Shown: positions 61 to 17,300 of the stretch, one piece after another | How positions within the stretch are numbered: position 1 is the first letter of the stretch | Layout of the letters: each line of letters begins with the position of its first letter | The notes under the pieces: generated by a model | Seen by the model: the letters and a program-made list of their open reading frames with translations, nothing else | The model's database searches: none | Told to the model about the DNA's origin: nothing | Assembly (NCBI GenBank): GCA_017631775.1 | Contig: JAGBSQ010000222.1 | Coordinates: 1-18,508 of the forward strand | Length of the DNA: 18,508 nucleotides | Reading direction: 5' to 3' | Origin: Clostridia bacterium | GTDB lineage: Bacteria > Bacillota_A > Clostridia > Oscillospirales > CAG-272 | Made by a program: the position numbers and the translations under genes

Positions 61-88
61 AAGGTGTCCTTTCTGAAGGAGGATTTTT

Positions 89-329
89 TGTCGGAACCTT
101 CTAGAAAGAAGGTTCCGACACCTCCAAGAACTTTTCTAACATATTTTCAAAAGCAAATCTGTTACAAACGAATAGACGGTTGACGCGAGGAAAAACCTCG
201 CTTTTGCTGCCGCGAGCTGCTAGGTAGCAAAGCGGCGCGAACGTAATGAATGACAGTCCGGTGGACTGTCAGAACGTGAGCGTGACCGAGCCGCAGCGAG
301 ACCCGCCAAGACCCTATCCGCTAAGAAAG
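89..329 (+). repeat. Structured three-hairpin repeat, copy A (interrupted)
   Basis: First of three copies of one repeat (others at 6191-6363 and 6731-6905). Hairpin 1 has 14-bp arms at 89-102 and 107-120. An AT-rich linker contains CCAAGAACTTTT. Hairpin 2 is GCGAGG (185-190), loop AAAAA, CCTCGC (196-201), followed by TTTTGC. Hairpin 3 has its left arm around 216-224 and its right arm at 312-321 (CCCTATCCGC). The two arms are separated by an 80-bp module (225-304) that the other copies lack at this place. The copy ends in TAAGAAAG. It sits upstream of the partial gene at 1-60 and reads away from it. Confidence 0.75.
225..304 (+). repeat. 80-bp nested module, copy 1
   Basis: This 80-bp block matches 6576-6655 on the opposite strand at 73 of 80 positions with no gaps. 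It begins TAGC and ends GCGAGACCC. It carries a perfect palindromic core, GACAGTCC-GGT-GGACTGTC (251-269). Here it splits hairpin 3 of repeat copy A, while the related copy at 6328-6355 has only a short loop between the same arms. No terminal inverted repeats or clear target duplication can be seen. A frame starting at 246 reads through it, but the base changes between the two copies do not favour silent sites, so I do not call a gene. Confidence 0.75.
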
Positions 330-428
330 TTGTTTGCCTGTGTTTATCTTTCTTATATTCTACCACAAATCCCCCCCATTTGCAACCCCCCTTTGGCAAT
401 TTTCTCCTTGTTTGCATATACTGTAACA
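330..428. other. AT-rich spacer with C-runs
   Basis: Spacer between repeat copy A and the amidase leader. It has runs of six to seven C at 371-377 and 386-391, and a candidate promoter at 393-422. No gene is seen in it; short open frames crossing it have no convincing start or ribosome binding site. Confidence 0.4.
393..422 (+). promoter_or_regulatory. Candidate sigma-A promoter for the first amidase
   Basis: TTGGCA (393-398), an 18-bp spacer and TATACT (417-422). Transcription would start near 429, leaving a leader of about 170 nt before the ATG at 600. The match is fair rather than perfect, so this is weaker than the other promoters in the window. Confidence 0.42.
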
Positions 429-5126: not shown

Positions 5127-6176
5127 ATGAAAAAAATGAAGGTTGCCGTTGTTGGATATGGCGGCATGGGCGGCTGGCACACCGAACATCTTTTAAAGAG
5201 CGACGTTTGCGAACTTGCAGGCGTGTATGACATCAAGCCCGAAAGAAATACATTGGCCCAGAGCCGTGGCATTTATGCATATCCTACCTATCAGGCACTG
5301 CTTGACGATAAGAGCGTAGAACTTATCACCGTAGCCATCCCCAACGATGACCACGAAGGTGTTGTTGTTGCTGCTCTCAACGCAGGCAAAAACGTCATTT
5401 GCGAAAAACCCGTAGCCCTCTCCCTTGAGGCGCTTGAAAATATGATCGCCGCAGCCGAGAAGAACGGTGTTCGTTTTGCCGTTCACCAAAATCGTCGTTG
5501 GGACGTTGACTATCTCGCAATGCAACAAATTCACGATTCGGGCGAGATCGGTAACGTTTTCAACATCGAATCCCGCATTCACGGCAGCCGTGGCATTCCC
5601 TCCGACTGGAGAGGTGAAAAGGAACACGGTGGCGGCATGATCTACGACTGGGGCATTCACTTAATCGACCAAGTTATGATGGTTTACCACTGGGCACCCA
5701 TCAAGAGCGTGTATTGCATTTGCGATAACATTACCAACAAAGAGGTTGATGACGGCTTCAAACTTCAAATCTTCTTCGAGAACGGCAAGCAGGCACACAT
5801 CGAGGTTGGAACCTATAACTTCATTGCAATGCCTCGCTTCTATCTCAGAGCCGAAAAGGGAACCGCCCTCATTACCGACTGGCGTGAGGAGACCAAGGTT
5901 GTCAAGTGCAAGTATTGGCACGAGAACGACGTTCTTCCCGTACAAACCGCGGCAGGCCTTACCAAAACAATGGCACCGCGCGATGAGATCACCACCGACA
6001 CCTATACCGTTGCCCGTCCCGCTTCCGACGTGCACGATTATTACCGTCATTTCGTCAACGCCATCCGTACCGGATGCGAGCAGGACGTAACCTATGACCA
6101 TATGCGTACCGACCTCAAAATCATCCTTGCCGCCTTCCGCTCCGCAGAACTCGGCATGCCTGTTGGATTAGAATGA
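5127..6176 (+). CDS. Gfo/Idh/MocA family NAD(P)-dependent oxidoreductase
   Basis: 349 residues, normal for the family. It probably oxidises or reduces a sugar, inositol or similar polyol; the substrate cannot be read from sequence. The N-terminal Rossmann fold has GYGGMG (10-15). EKPVALS (93-99) holds the family's catalytic lysine (Lys94). The C-terminal alpha/beta domain has HGGGMIYDWGIHLIDQ (167-182), giving the usual Asp174 and His178. The ATG at 5127 follows GAAAGGAT (5113-5120). No signal peptide, so cytoplasmic. It stands alone, with a strong promoter and a phased direct repeat upstream, and no transporter or kinase beside it to hint at the substrate. A repeat hairpin starts 14 bp after the stop. 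Confidence 0.9.
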   Translation: MKKMKVAVVGYGGMGGWHTEHLLKSDVCELAGVYDIKPERNTLAQSRGIYAYPTYQALLDDKSVELITVAIPNDDHEGVVVAALNAGKNVICEKPVALSLEALENMIAAAEKNGVRFAVHQNRRWDVDYLAMQQIHDSGEIGNVFNIESRIHGSRGIPSDWRGEKEHGGGMIYDWGIHLIDQVMMVYHWAPIKSVYCICDNITNKEVDDGFKLQIFFENGKQAHIEVGTYNFIAMPRFYLRAEKGTALITDWREETKVVKCKYWHENDVLPVQTAAGLTKTMAPRDEITTDTYTVARPASDVHDYYRHFVNAIRTGCEQDVTYDHMRTDLKIILAAFRSAELGMPVGLE

Positions 6177-6190
6177 TTTATGAAAGAGAT

Positions 6191-6363
6191 TGCAGGGGGG
6201 AACTTTTTGAAAAAAGTTCCCCCCTGCACCCCCTTCAAAAACTTTCGCACAAACAATATCTAAATAAATTCGTCAGTTTACAAATGGACAGTCGGCGCGA
6301 AGTGAAACTTCGCTTTTGCTATCGCGAGCGGCTAGGGACCACTAACCCTATCCGCTAAGAAAG
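6191..6363 (+). repeat. Structured three-hairpin repeat, copy B-left
   Basis: Hairpin 1 has 18-bp arms (6191-6208 and 6211-6228) around a 2-base centre. The linker CCCCCTTCAAAAACTTTCGC then continues into an AT-rich part. Hairpin 2 is GCGAAG (6297-6302), TGAAA, CTTCGC (6308-6313), followed by TTTTGC. Hairpin 3 is GCGGCTAGGG (6328-6337) with CCCTATCCGC (6346-6355), one mismatch. The copy ends TAAGAAAG. It lies just after the oxidoreductase stop, so hairpin 2 with its T-run could act as a terminator. It faces copy B-right in opposite orientation. Confidence 0.8.
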
Positions 6364-6376
6364 TAGAATAGAAAAA

Positions 6377-6410
6377 AGGGATAGCGTACTTGCTATCCCT
6401 ATTATTGTAT
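6377..6410 (+). terminator. Terminator-like hairpin inside the repeat region
   Basis: A 9-bp stem AGGGATAGC (6377-6385) with GCTATCCCT (6392-6400), loop GTACTT, followed by ATTATTGTATC. The tail is only partly T-rich. It may be a terminator or another palindromic unit of the mosaic. Confidence 0.45.
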
Positions 6411-6412
6411 CT

Positions 6413-6440
6413 TTGTAGGGGACGACGTCCTCGGCGTCCC
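6413..6440 (+). repeat. TTGTAGGG palindromic unit 1
   Basis: Starts TTGTAGGGGACGACG and folds by GGGACG (6419-6424) with CGTCCC (6435-6440). This is the uninterrupted form of the unit that the 80-bp module splits at 6566-6670. Confidence 0.65.
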
Positions 6441-6469
6441 GAAATCGAGCGGTTACCGCAAACAAAATG

Positions 6470-6493
6470 CGGGCGAACAAAGTTCGCCCCTAC
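6470..6493 (-). repeat. TTGTAGGG palindromic unit 2 (reverse)
   Basis: GTAGGGGCGAAC on the minus strand. An 8-bp perfect stem (6471-6478 with 6482-6489) encloses a 3-base loop. Same family as the units at 6413 and 6510. Confidence 0.65.
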
Positions 6494-6509
6494 GGCTATA
6501 AAAAACACA

Positions 6510-6537
6510 TTGTAGGGGCGATTCACGAATCGCCCGC
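6510..6537 (+). repeat. TTGTAGGG palindromic unit 3
   Basis: TTGTAGGGGCGATTC opens a perfect 9-bp stem (6516-6524 with 6527-6535) and a 2-base loop. Palindromes of this GTAGGGGCG type are, from memory, common between genes in many Clostridia genomes; I could not check this here. Confidence 0.65.
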
Positions 6538-6565
6538 TTCTCATTTTGCTAACTTCCATAAAGGC

Positions 6566-6670
6566 GGGACGCCGAGGGTCTCGCTGTGGCTCGGTCTCGC
6601 TCGCGTTCTGACAGTCCACCGGACTGTCATTCATTACGCTCACGCCGCTACGCTACGTCGTCCCCTACAA
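6566..6670 (-). repeat. TTGTAGGG palindromic unit 4, split by the 80-bp module
   Basis: On the minus strand TTGTAGGGGACGACG (6656-6670) matches unit 1 exactly. The other half, CTCGGCGTCCC (6566-6576, overlapping the module end by a base), also matches unit 1. Between them sits the 80-bp module. Compared with unit 1, this is an insertion at a definable point. Confidence 0.7.
6576..6655 (-). repeat. 80-bp nested module, copy 2
   Basis: Reverse-strand copy of 225-304, with 7 substitutions in 80 bp and no gaps. The palindromic core GACAGTCC-GGT-GGACTGTC is unchanged. It is inserted inside TTGTAGGG unit 4. Confidence 0.75.
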
Positions 6671-6685
6671 TGTGACACGTAAACC

Positions 6686-6714
6686 TTGTAGGGACCGGCG
6701 TCCTCGACAGTCCG
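6686..6714 (+). repeat. TTGTAGGG palindromic unit 5 (diverged)
   Basis: TTGTAGGGACCGGCGTCCTC followed by GACAGTCCG. Only a weak GGAC/GTCC pairing remains. Its tail GACAGTCCG resembles the core of the 80-bp module, which may be chance. Confidence 0.45.
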
Positions 6715-6730
6715 TTTTATTATTCCCAAC

Positions 6731-6905
6731 AACTCTCTTAGAAATCAGGGTCTCGGTGGCCCCTGATTTCTTGCGACAGCAAAAGCGAGGTTTACCCTCG
6801 CGCCGCCCGTCTATCCGCACACTAACAATTCTATTTAGATAATTATTGTGCGAAAGTTCTTGAAAGGGGTGTGGGGGAAACTTCTTGCAAGAAGTTTCCC
6901 CCACA
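6731..6905 (-). repeat. Structured three-hairpin repeat, copy B-right
   Basis: Read on the minus strand, hairpin 1 is a perfect 36-bp palindrome (6870-6905), 5 bp beyond the tyrS stop. The linker is CCCCTTTCAAGAACTTTCGC and continues AT-rich. Hairpin 2 is GCGAGG, GTAAA, CCTCGC (6785-6801), followed by TTTTGC. Hairpin 3 is a perfect 10-bp stem (6741-6750 with 6761-6770). It ends CTAAGAGAG. It is the inverted partner of copy B-left, and the hairpin arms differ in paired fashion from that copy. Confidence 0.8.
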
Positions 6906-6910
6906 AAAAA

Positions 6911-8134
6911 TTATTTCAATTCACCAAGATAATACTTCTTTTTACCGCGGCGAACAACGATATACTTGCCGCCAAGAGCTACGTCGGCGTTGATTTCGAG
7001 GTTCATATCGGCGATAGGCTCACCGTTGAGAGTGAGGGACTTGTTGGAGATGAACTCACGAGCTTCACGCTTAGAGGAGCAGATGCCTGCGCCAACGAGA
7101 ACGTCCATAATGAGACCGCCTTCGGTTTCGAAGTGGGGAACGTCCTTAAGACCTGCCAAAAGGTCTTGCATCGGAATTTCCTTGATGTTGCCGGCAAAGA
7201 GTTGTTCGCTGATCTTAACGGCAGACTCATAAGCGCCTTCACCGTGCAGGTCGCGCAGAATCTCTTCTGCAAGCTTCTTTTGAGCAAGACGACGCTCGGG
7301 AGCGGCATTGTGCTCAGCCTCAATAGCCTCAATCTCTTCGCGAGAGAGGAAGGTGAGTCTCTTAAGGTACTCAATTACCATGCTGTCCTCAGAGTTGAGC
7401 AGGAATTGGTAGAGTTGATAGGAGCTTGTCTTGTTCTTGTCGAGCCAAACTGCGTTGCCCTCGCTCTTACCAAACTTGTTGCCGTGAGAGTCGGTAACAA
7501 GAGGCATGGTCATAGCAAATACTTCATCACCCGTGGTCTTGCGGATAAGCTCAATACCGGTGGTAATGTTACCCCATTGGTCGGAGCCTGCAACCTGCAG
7601 ATCAACGCCGCGAGTTTCGTGCAGATACTTAAAGTCAAGACCTTGAATGAGCATGTAGGAGAACTCTGCATAAGAAATACCGGTCTCCATTTGACGGCGG
7701 ATGAGGTCCTTGCTCAGCATGTAGCCAACGTTAATGTACTTACCGTAGTCACGGAAGAAATCGATGATATTAAGATCTTTTACCCAATCGTAGTTGTTAA
7801 CAACCTCGTAGGGGAAGATTTTTTGCAATTGTGTTTTGAGGCATTCGTAGTTGTGAATGACCTCGTCACGGTCGGAAAGCTTGCGCTCAACGGTTCCGCG
7901 AGGGTCGCCAATGAGGGCGGTCGCCATACCGACAAGCAAGAGGGGAGTGTGACCTGCTGCTGCAAGACGGCGAGTGATTAAGAAAGAAGAGTAGTGACCC
8001 AAGTGCAGGCTGTCAGCCGTGGGGTCAGTACCAATATAAAAGGTCATGCCACCGGCGTTGAGCTTGTCAACGAGCTCGGGGCTGGAGATGTCTTGAATTA
8101 AGCCTCTCCATTTCAGATCTTCATACAAAGTCAT
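6911..8134 (-). CDS. tyrS: Tyrosyl-tRNA synthetase
   Basis: 407 residues from the ATG at 8132-8134, preceded by GGAGGA. A longer frame open to 8221 would begin upstream of the promoter and is rejected. The enzyme activates tyrosine with ATP and charges tRNA-Tyr in the cytoplasm. The class I HIGH motif appears as HLGH within GTDPTADSLHLGHYSS, and KMSKS as KFGKS (GNKFGKSEGNAVW), the form usual in TyrS. The C-terminus is an S4-type RNA-binding domain (SSKREAREFISNKSLTLNGE). The leader is only about 28 nt, too short for a T-box, so tRNA-sensing control of this gene is unlikely. A repeat copy follows the stop directly. Confidence 0.96.
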   Translation of the reverse strand: MTLYEDLKWRGLIQDISSPELVDKLNAGGMTFYIGTDPTADSLHLGHYSSFLITRRLAAAGHTPLLLVGMATALIGDPRGTVERKLSDRDEVIHNYECLKTQLQKIFPYEVVNNYDWVKDLNIIDFFRDYGKYINVGYMLSKDLIRRQMETGISYAEFSYMLIQGLDFKYLHETRGVDLQVAGSDQWGNITTGIELIRKTTGDEVFAMTMPLVTDSHGNKFGKSEGNAVWLDKNKTSSYQLYQFLLNSEDSMVIEYLKRLTFLSREEIEAIEAEHNAAPERRLAQKKLAEEILRDLHGEGAYESAVKISEQLFAGNIKEIPMQDLLAGLKDVPHFETEGGLIMDVLVGAGICSSKREAREFISNKSLTLNGEPIADMNLEINADVALGGKYIVVRRGKKKYYLGELK

Positions 8135-16378: not shown

Positions 16379-17236
16379 ATGAAAACTTTTTTAAACGTTG
16401 TTGCGCTTATTCTCTTTGTGTGCATCTTGGCCACCGGCATTGTAAGCTTTGAAAACCACCAAAGCGGCACGCTGTTTGCCTATTTGCGCATGCACCAAGA
16501 GCACGCGCCTCTCGCGCTCACCCCTACAACCCCTCAGGGCAATACGCAAACCCAAACGCTTTGGGAGTGGGTAGAGGATAGCCGCGTAACCTTTGACCAA
16601 ACCCTCATACTCGTCAATCTCCAAAATCCTCTCCCCGAGGATTACAAGGCAGACATTAAAGAATATAACGGTGCCAGAATGCACCCGTCAATGGTAGAGA
16701 ATTATGCCGCCATGCGCGATGCCGTAAAGCTGGCAACAGGCACTCGCATCTACGTTTCCAGCGACTTCCGCACAGCCGAGGAGCAAGCCGAACTGTTGGA
16801 ACAATATGGCCCCGACCGCGCGGCTCCCGTTGGTTGTAGCGAGCACGAAGCCGGACTTTCGCTCGACCTTTACGCGCCCGAGCATGCAAGCTATGCGTTT
16901 TTAAACTGTGCGGCAGGCCGCATGGTCAATCGCATTTGCCATAAGTATGGCTTTATCATTCGTTACGAGGTCGATAAAACCGAGGTCACCGGCTTTGATT
17001 ATGAGCCTTGGCACCTGCGCTACGTAGGTGCGCCCCATGCCGAGCTGATTGCAAACAGCGGCTTGGCTCTTGAGGAATACATCGAGGCCATCACCCCCGA
17101 AACATGGTATTCTTACGAGAACTACTTAATTTTGCGCACCTCTGACACAGAGGAGATTGCACTCCCCACATCCTTTACATCTTGTCACATTTCTCCCGAT
17201 AATACGGGATATTACATTGTAACAATAGAATTGTAA
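16379..17236 (+). CDS. VanY-like D-alanyl-D-alanine carboxypeptidase (M15B), membrane-anchored
   Basis: 285 residues. Residues 5-23 are a hydrophobic segment with no lipobox, so a membrane anchor or cleavable signal. The M15B peptidase domain spans about 95-225. It has SSDFRTAEEQAELL (127-140), zinc motif SEHEAGLSLD (154-163; His156 and Asp163) and YEPWHLRYV (208-216), with catalytic Glu209 and third zinc ligand His212. Such enzymes trim the last D-Ala from peptidoglycan stem peptides. No vanR/S or vanHAX genes are nearby, so a housekeeping role in wall turnover is more likely than glycopeptide resistance. A ribosome binding site AAAAGGAAA precedes the ATG. About 45 residues after the domain have no recognised motif. 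Confidence 0.88.
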   Translation: MKTFLNVVALILFVCILATGIVSFENHQSGTLFAYLRMHQEHAPLALTPTTPQGNTQTQTLWEWVEDSRVTFDQTLILVNLQNPLPEDYKADIKEYNGARMHPSMVENYAAMRDAVKLATGTRIYVSSDFRTAEEQAELLEQYGPDRAAPVGCSEHEAGLSLDLYAPEHASYAFLNCAAGRMVNRICHKYGFIIRYEVDKTEVTGFDYEPWHLRYVGAPHAELIANSGLALEEYIEAITPETWYSYENYLILRTSDTEEIALPTSFTSCHISPDNTGYYIVTIEL

Positions 17237-17258: not shown

Positions 17259-17300
17259 GGGGAGCTTTTCTCAAAAAGTTCCCCCGATATATATATTTAT
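17259..17300 (+). terminator. Hairpin after the VanY-like gene, possible terminator
   Basis: An 11-bp stem (17259-17269 with 17274-17284, one G-T pair) with loop CTCA, followed by an AT-rich but not T-only tail. The arms (GGGGAGCTTTT and AAAAGTTCCCC) resemble hairpin 1 of the structured repeat, so it may be a remnant of that family. Confidence 0.5.

Follow-up and report, generated by a model that had tools for sequence, protein, structure and literature searches.

Among the described bacterial repeats, potential intrastrand triplex motifs are one of the nearest comparisons to the family analyzed here. In Holder et al. 2015 (PMC4666352), intrastrand triplexes are divided into classes I–IV, and 988,588 candidates are reported in 5246 genomes and plasmids, as against 276,270 in scrambled ones. 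According to that paper, the G/C-rich motif TM-ECO (earlier BoxC/PIT) is present in 262 proteobacterial genomes, folds in solution, and has neither promoter nor terminator activity, while in vivo footprinting of the E. coli motif gave no stable triplex. Loci with triplex motifs are described there as more variable, triplexes are linked with local instability, and purine-motif triplexes are stated to be unable to form in RNA. This earlier work on intrastrand DNA triplexes in bacteria drew its evidence from searches of sequences, folding in the test tube, and the variation seen near the motif (PMC4666352). Neither the present family nor strand-switching triplex repeats in bacteria were found described in searches of an open-licence paper library.

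The analyzed window is the whole stretch of 18,508 nucleotides of contig JAGBSQ010000222.1 from a Clostridia bacterium. Our analysis on balance leans toward a family of dispersed composite DNA repeats of the REP/BIME-like kind, with a potential intrastrand triple helix as the first module, a barrier role at gene edges, and exchange of hairpins, in one rumen Oscillospiraceae lineage. The traits that can be read from the sequences themselves are the anatomy of the unit, a rule relating an arm to its tail and the co-change of the two, placement at gene edges, mostly stable sites, and exchanged hairpins.

Three matching stretches, in the order given by an earlier note on this DNA, were confirmed in the window, two on the plus strand and one on the minus strand (Table 1). 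Each of them folds much better than its dinucleotide shuffles (z of -6.7 for copy A, -8.6 for copy B, and -6.2 for copy C), none of the 200 shuffles per copy being as good. The arms of hairpin 2 (GCGAGG/CCTCGC in two copies and GCGAAG/CTTCGC in one) and of hairpin 3 (GCGGCTAGGG/CCCTATCCGC, with one C.T mismatch, and GAAATCAGGG/CCCTGATTTC) were also read correctly in that note. Its description of hairpin 1 as differing almost wholly between copies had to be revised, since copies A and B are 81% alike over 27 nt; among the three window copies, a very different hairpin 1 is found only in copy C.

Table 1. Copies of the repeat and their parts in the window (CM R1, covariance model built from 29 copies).
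Feature	Positions	Strand	Basis and remarks
Full copy A	6188..6368	+	CM R1, 183.6 bits; begins 12 nt past the stop of gene 5127-6176
Copy A hairpin 1 (TGCAGGGGGGAACTTTTT/AAAAAGTTCCCCCCTGCA)	6191..6228	+	sequence and fold
Copy A tail CCCCCTTCAAAAA, proposed third strand	6229..6241	+	parallel complement of hairpin 1 5' arm less one base
Copy A hairpin 2	6297..6313	+	fold and terminator-consensus scan
Copy A hairpin 3 (GCGGCTAGGG/CCCTATCCGC; 3' arm class TATCCGCT)	6327..6355	+	sequence, fold
Full copy B	6728..6908	-	CM R1, 191.3 bits; begins 3 nt past tyrS (6911-8134, minus strand)
Copy B hairpin 1	6870..6905	-	sequence and fold
Copy B tail CCCCTTTCAAGAA, proposed third strand	6857..6869	-	arm-tail rule
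Copy B hairpin 2	6785..6801	-	fold and terminator-consensus scan
Copy B hairpin 3 (AGAAATCAGGG/CCCTGATTTCT)	6740..6771	-	sequence, fold, arm classes
Full copy C	86..334	+	CM R1, 119.1 bits; hairpin 1 side adjoins start of minus-strand gene beginning near position 60
Copy C hairpin 1	89..120	+	sequence and fold
Copy C tail CCTCCAAGAAC, proposed third strand	121..131	+	read from sequence; arm-tail rule
Copy C hairpin 2	185..201	+	fold and terminator-consensus scan
Copy C hairpin 3, loop holding second repeat of ~80 nt (224-304)	215..322	+	repeat comparison, sequence, arm classes

The unit is about 180 nt long and consists of three hairpins plus a tail. Hairpin 1 is followed by the short pyrimidine-then-adenine tail, a variable A+T-rich linker, the word GACNG..GGCGC, hairpin 2, TTTTGCTNTCGCGAG, hairpin 3, and CTAAGARAGTTG. 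The second and third modules are simple hairpins whose edges are conserved; in hairpin 3 the loop is conserved too, as GGGACCACTAACCC or GGNRCCRCCRAGACCC. The covariance model omitted one copy cut by a contig end and copy C of the window, which was unmatched by the core pattern. All three helices covary more strongly in the alignment of these 29 copies than in its shuffles. The share of paired cells was 97.2% versus 86.9% in shuffles, double-change cells numbered 109 versus 35.5, and the covariation score was 0.357 versus 0.164, with 0 of 500 shuffles reaching the observed value in each case; further pair types showed no excess (32 versus 29.9, 83 of 500 shuffles). Shifting the helix partners abolishes the signal. 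Much of this covariation is the re-use of a limited set of hairpin alleles, which are exchanged as discrete units. Selection on structure in a dispersed repeat, as suggested in the earlier note, is well supported by the covariation and the copy number, and independent simple palindromes are excluded as an explanation. A candidate closing helix, AACTCTCT/AGAGAGTT, was 84.5% paired with covariation not above shuffles; it was rejected as a helix and retained as a conserved inverted word pair.

The second repeat in the hairpin 3 loop of copy C has an inverted counterpart at 6576-6656, which lies inside a GTAGGGG..CGTCCC palindrome. The core of this second repeat, GACAGTCCGGTGGACTGTC, is present in 8 of the 122 family copies considered below, and an exact 14-mer of it was counted 14 times in the window and the fetched stretches together. 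Another class of palindromes (GTAGGGGACG..CGTCCC, GGGCGATTCACGAATCGCCC) occupies positions 6410-6680 of the window, which separate copy A from copy B, and palindromes resembling this class are also located behind many family copies elsewhere. A hairpin similar to hairpin 1, without a rule-obeying tail and without the core, was found at 17259-17285, 23 nt past the stop codon at 17236. No tRNA was found in the window.

A core-pattern search of 84,980 species genomes yielded 32 stretches, 27 of them in two Oscillospiraceae MAGs, SIG623 (G001) and SIG698 (G002); the other five, in unrelated genomes, were chance-like. Judging by their isolate names, the two MAGs are presumably of rumen origin. The window comes from a close relative of both, since its TyrRS is 97-98% identical to theirs. 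The family comprises 122 strong copies, 3 in the window, 59 in G001, and 60 in G002, counted as matches of at least 96 bits in the fetched stretches (1.37 Mb of G002 and 475 kb of G001, the latter selected largely for holding matches). The 144 and 141 model matches obtained per genome come from 150 candidates scored per genome and are not copy numbers; low-score antisense matches (about 25-35 bits) stem from the palindromic hairpin 1.

The model was matched at E<=0.001 by 39 of the 60 nearest genomes (both MAGs included), mostly more weakly, the best scores dropping from 194 to below 70 bits. Some hairpin 3 alleles recur, by eye, in the more distant G033. An order-wide sample of 197 genomes contained six with matches to R1 at E<=1e-8, namely G002 and five others (scoring no more than 54 bits); in three outside loci inspected by eye (L256-L258), hairpin 1 with its tail was all that was present. 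Therefore, the full repeat is a trait of one lineage. An exact allele of hairpin 1 plus tail was found across the class in 1 of 291 genomes, G002 itself, this query being too allele-specific to gauge the spread of the rule. The core pattern had no matches in viral contigs; phage records gave three weak partial matches only (E 7), and plasmid records gave three partial matches limited to hairpin 1 and tail. Small Clostridioides difficile and Enterococcus plasmids (L001 176-222, L002 3001-3046, L003 1384-1429) carry a hairpin of this kind, not accompanied by the core, close to genes for replication or mobilisation. A TPP riboswitch (68.2 bits, above the gathering score) was identified in G033 at L067 1090-1193 on the minus strand, apart from the repeat.

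The copies are located at gene edges, with genes called by a custom gene caller. A start within 45 nt past a same-strand stop codon was observed for 95 of the 122 copies, the median distance among those 95 being 9 nt. Of the 118 copies with a 5' neighbour, 94 lie within 25 nt past such a stop (46/56 in G001, 46/60 in G002, and 2/2 in the window), and overlap with a called gene exceeded 20 nt in none of the 79 tested copies. Twelve of the other 27 copies, copy C included, have a reversed start codon with a ribosome-binding site beside hairpin 1, followed in 11 cases by an open frame of at least 40 codons; as controls, reversed starts occurred in 2 of the 95 copies behind stops, 15 of 122 right-hand flanks, and 8.8% of random 60-mers. 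With both placements counted, hairpin 1 adjoins a gene in 107 of the 122 copies. The minus-strand gene next to copy C runs off the window, and beyond this copy a promoter-like match was found on the minus strand at 357-385 (one of 3 found, 0.8 expected). In G033, 8 of 15 tested copies lie within 40 nt past a same-strand stop; in G024 none of 13 does, with 9 located further behind one, and therefore tight spacing from the stop codon is not universal.

The tail of hairpin 1 follows a rule whose starting point was the perfect covariation of column 26 in the arm with column 68 in the linker/tail. An alternative duplex between these regions had, by eye, six pairs only versus the 16-bp hairpin and was replaced by a parallel rule. 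The tail equals the 5' arm of hairpin 1 complemented without reversal, i.e., the mirror of the 3' arm: G is answered by C, A by T, and T by A. One base is left out, and where the arm passes from purines to pyrimidines its junction C is answered by C. Examples of arm and tail are GGGGGAAACTTCTT / CCCCTTTCAAGAA in copy B, GGGGGGAACTTTTT / CCCCCTTCAAAAA in copy A, and GGGAGGAACTTTTTC / CCCTCTTCAAAAAG in G033. The rule was derived from the same sequences, and the controls are its test.

Statistics were collected for 152 copies from six sources, 145 of which were parsed and 7 were not. Among the parsed copies, the C-run lengths at the junction agree in 138, the arm exceeds the tail by exactly 1 nt in 125, and TTCTT/AAGAA agreement is found in 134. 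For the 65 distinct arm-tail pairs, C-run lengths correlated with an r of 0.917, A-run lengths with 0.824 (each 0 of 5000 permutations), and G-run lengths with 0.451 (1 of 5000). The fit to an arm was 0.858 for its own tail, 0.685 for the tail of a copy with another arm, and 0.391 for shuffled tails. Own tails surpassed swapped ones in 118 of 120 distinct cases. When the 5' arm was read antiparallel, direct or as a mirror, the fit was 0.39-0.47. Under a looser rule, in which C may answer C or G, a fit of 0.7 was reached by 116 of 130 distinct hairpins 1 and by 27 of 516 other intergenic hairpins (mean 0.417, each strand counted). Among the best 25 of these other hairpins that were listed, 22 are by eye further units of hairpin 1 plus tail beyond the 122 copies, such as arm GGAGAGGGGGAAAACTTCTT with tail CCTCTCCCCTTTTCAAGAA; some of these units are weak model matches.

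The co-change is also visible between species. Of 26 orthologous sites, 18 have unlike arms, and there the tails are unlike as well, with own tails fitting better than those of the ortholog (0.879 versus 0.681; own better in 30 of 36 comparisons). The linker that follows these tails, by contrast, is still recognisably orthologous (0.670 versus 0.614 for random pairs, P 0.001). Arm and tail are adjacent and change together, and hairpin 1 alleles are common to both genomes, as they would be if a few units of hairpin 1 plus tail had been copied around and their symmetry were a by-product of ancestry, free of selection on a third strand. This explanation seems very improbable to us, since distinct units obey the rule separately, even with interrupted tracts (GGGAGG with CCCTC, GGAGAG with CCTCTC), duplication or inversion cannot yield mirror symmetry, and hairpins in general do not have it.

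In many G033 copies (L067, L232-L238) the tail word also opens an additional hairpin (AAGAACTTCC..GGAAGTTCTT) as its first arm; this hairpin changes together with hairpin 1 and, by eye, adds a further strand to the co-variation. Hairpins with a seemingly matching tail (by eye) and without the core were also observed behind tyrS of more distant relatives (L082, L087, L091).

Since the mirror relation yields no ordinary duplex, a strand-switching intrastrand DNA triplex is proposed as the explanation of the arm-tail rule. In module 1, comprising hairpin 1 and its tail, the tail would fold back along the hairpin. It would first run parallel to the purine half of the 5' arm, placing C on G-C and T on A-T, and then cross to the purines of the 3' arm, running antiparallel with A on T-A and G on C-G. 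Read in this way, three consecutive tracts on one strand follow the triplet rules of a PIT-type motif, except for one non-canonical position at the junction of the top strand. There, C answered by C makes a non-canonical triplet, and the complementary strand, with G on that pair, fits better. We take it from general triplex chemistry that the complementary strand offers a known triplet at every position, junction included, and that a base would presumably be skipped where the third strand crosses over. A DNA structure, on one strand or the other, is favoured, since the complementary strand fits triplets throughout and RNA, according to Holder et al. 2015 (PMC4666352), is unable to take up a purine third strand. 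More tentatively, the lineage may keep this strand-switching triple helix at gene edges by natural selection, and the triple helix may drive rapid exchange of the neighbouring hairpins.

The position of the 95 copies behind same-strand stops, the covarying helices, and the conserved single-stranded blocks would also suit a structured 3'-UTR RNA, transcribed behind the stop codon, that protects the mRNA end, terminates transcription through hairpin 2 and TTTT, or binds a protein via the hairpin 3 loop. Mismatches in hairpin 1 are in keeping with such an RNA: in 104 distinct arm pairs, G.T outnumbers A.C by 48 to 13. This excess may point to selection acting on the top strand, perhaps as RNA, or to a strand bias in mutation, and it leaves room for an added transcript role. 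Hairpin 1 has no T-tract on its own strand; hairpin 2 is followed by TTTT or TTTGG. A script-based test for intrinsic terminators was passed by 6 of 94 elements, and a looser consensus scan lists as terminator-like hairpin 2 of all three window copies, along with hairpin 1 of copy A on the minus strand. On the other hand, the T-tracts behind hairpin 2 are just 3-4 long. An ordinary terminator is found within 200 nt behind 31 of 93 copies (1-3 in shuffles, 26 on the reverse strand of the same stretches). Further points against an RNA are the twelve copies antisense beside gene starts, the purine third strand implied by the tail rule, and the Rfam searches, which found no match at the gathering score in the window and only chance-level matches to the element at E<=1 in five loci. 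We regard the 3'-UTR RNA as an unlikely reading of the family. Of the readings suggested in the earlier note (structured RNA, terminator family, mobile palindromic element), all under selection on structure, the selection stood, and a conventional structured RNA alone became less likely because the hairpin 1 tail fits the triple-helix rule, 12 copies are antisense beside gene starts, and hairpins are swapped as modules. The repeat may yet have a role as 3'-UTR RNA or terminator.

The swapping of hairpins was revealed by comparison of orthologous sites. After exclusion of sites with no fetched ortholog (6 and 14), without reciprocal best matches (3 and 4), or at a contig end (1), the element was kept at 26 of 36 comparable gene ends from G001 to G002 and at 25 of 29 from G002 to G001, and several of the 14 sites scored as absent retain, by eye, a hairpin similar to hairpin 1. 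Gene ends at shared sites are 86% identical. Behind tyrS, the window, G001, and G002 each carry a copy at the same place with different hairpins; the whole element was found by eye at 2 of 20 tyrS ends of relatives, those of G001 and G002 (one end was only 79 nt long).

Arm alleles could be parsed in 111 of the 122 copies. Hairpin 3 draws on a restricted repertoire of arm pairs, in several of which an identical internal mismatch recurs, and its 3' arm has 17 alleles in G001 and 15 in G002, 11 of them common to both. At parsed orthologous sites the hairpin 3 allele agrees in 2 of 22 cases, with 2.69 expected by chance; the hairpin 2 class agrees in 7 of 22 (3.82 expected, P 0.046) and the hairpin 1 class in 8 of 26 (1.93 expected). 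Over the 26 shared sites, similarity of the hairpin 3 arms was 0.709 versus 0.708 in random pairs, compared with 0.768 versus 0.751 for hairpin 2, 0.835 versus 0.800 for hairpin 1, 0.711 versus 0.642 for the linker, and 0.622 versus 0.553 for the DNA behind the element. Complete loss of orthology memory is thus limited to hairpin 3; hairpin 1 keeps some of it and hairpin 2 a little. Some orthologous copies are near-identical save for one swapped hairpin (L154/L192 for hairpin 3, L137/L119 for hairpin 2). Since sites are shared, hairpin 3 has lost its orthology, and single hairpins are swapped, hairpins are replaced as modules at mostly fixed sites.

The same comparison bears on whether these are non-autonomous elements of the MITE/REP kind that are still moved by a transposase, with the gene edge as target preference and the apparent exchange as re-insertion at the same spot. 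High copy number, full elements lacking in the other species at 10 of 36 and 4 of 29 comparable sites, frequent facing pairs (16 '+-' versus 2 '-+' among copies within 1.5 kb of each other), and direct flank words slightly longer than in swapped flanks (5.29 versus 5.03, sd 0.09) are what such movement would leave; direct flank words of at least 7 nt were counted, without a control, in 17 of 122 copies. We nevertheless consider it improbable, given that both species have the element at the majority of comparable sites, individual hairpins are swapped in copies that are otherwise alike, and inverted flank words, which would point to the terminal inverted repeats of a MITE, are no longer than in swapped flanks (4.65 versus 4.69). 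Nor did G001 or G002 contain a match to the Y1 (REP/IS200-type) transposase. No Y1 match (PF01797) was found in G001, G002, G010, G011, and G033, all drafts and maybe incomplete, and the family-carrying relatives G016, G019, G024, and G025 have one or two matches each. A reverse transcriptase was considered as the driver and rejected, because none was found in G010, G013, G024, and G033, all of which match the model; G002 and G001 have one frame of ~310 aa each (G002:C36:68961-69533, G001:C111:5410-5982), and some relatives have one too.

Exchange at fixed gene edges could instead be linked to the proposed triplex. Single-stranded DNA arising there during replication, or during transcription past the gene end, would let module 1 fold, and the folded module would hinder polymerases and form a barrier at the gene border. 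Stalled forks or breaks, followed by repair or template switching, would allow hairpins 2 and 3 to be re-copied from other members of the family, the short conserved words around them guiding the copying. Such a mechanism would account for the fixed sites, the shared alleles, the lost orthology of hairpin 3, and the kept orthology of the linker. We infer both this mechanism of exchange and the function of the repeat as a polymerase barrier and recombination hot spot.

Co-change of arm and tail across many alleles and orthologous places means that evolution itself tests the third strand; if the triplex reading is true, this would be comparative evidence for a triple helix, akin to compensatory changes for duplexes. 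With its hairpin modules exchanged at sites that stay in place, the family is also an experiment provided by nature and supplies ready-made alleles for measuring fork stalling, termination, and recombination.

Integron attC sites likewise keep structure while sequence varies and lie directly past a stop codon; the present family, unlike them, occurs on both strands and beside ordinary housekeeping genes (tyrS), with no cassette array seen. MITEs are similarly short, non-coding, dispersed, and foldable, whereas this family is without terminal inverted repeats, has at most a weak sign of target duplication, and occupies sites mostly shared between two species; by its ends, it is not a MITE. With REP/BIME repeats and their RAYT transposases it shares high-copy extragenic palindromes, frequent facing pairs, and a mosaic build, but its unit is about 180 nt long with three hairpins and a tail, and no Y1 match was found in the five genomes searched; the status of a RAYT-linked REP is not supported in G001 and G002. 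The TM-ECO pattern CCCTCNCCC-N3-6-GGGNGAGGG-NNN-GGGNGAGGG had 0 exact matches in the window and was absent from 258 of 258 loci, so by pattern the family is not BoxC/TM-ECO, while by its arm-tail rule it belongs to the broad class of potential intrastrand triplex motifs. As described by Holder et al. 2015 (PMC4666352), the PIT/BoxC/TM-ECO motifs are also dispersed bacterial repeats with many copies per genome, in which one strand holds an arm, its complementary arm, and a third tract able to occupy the major groove. TM-ECO is portrayed there as a G/C-rich purine-motif triplex of conserved sequence in proteobacteria. In the Oscillospiraceae family, by contrast, the rule persists although sequences differ, and the motif opens a gene-edge repeat as the first of its three hairpin modules. 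Its purines switch arms and the third tract switches too, skipping one base. Module 1 would combine two of the triplex classes within a single stem, its third strand passing from one arm to the other. By analogy, the whole unit would work like a PIT-type triplex motif combined with a REP-like mosaic repeat.
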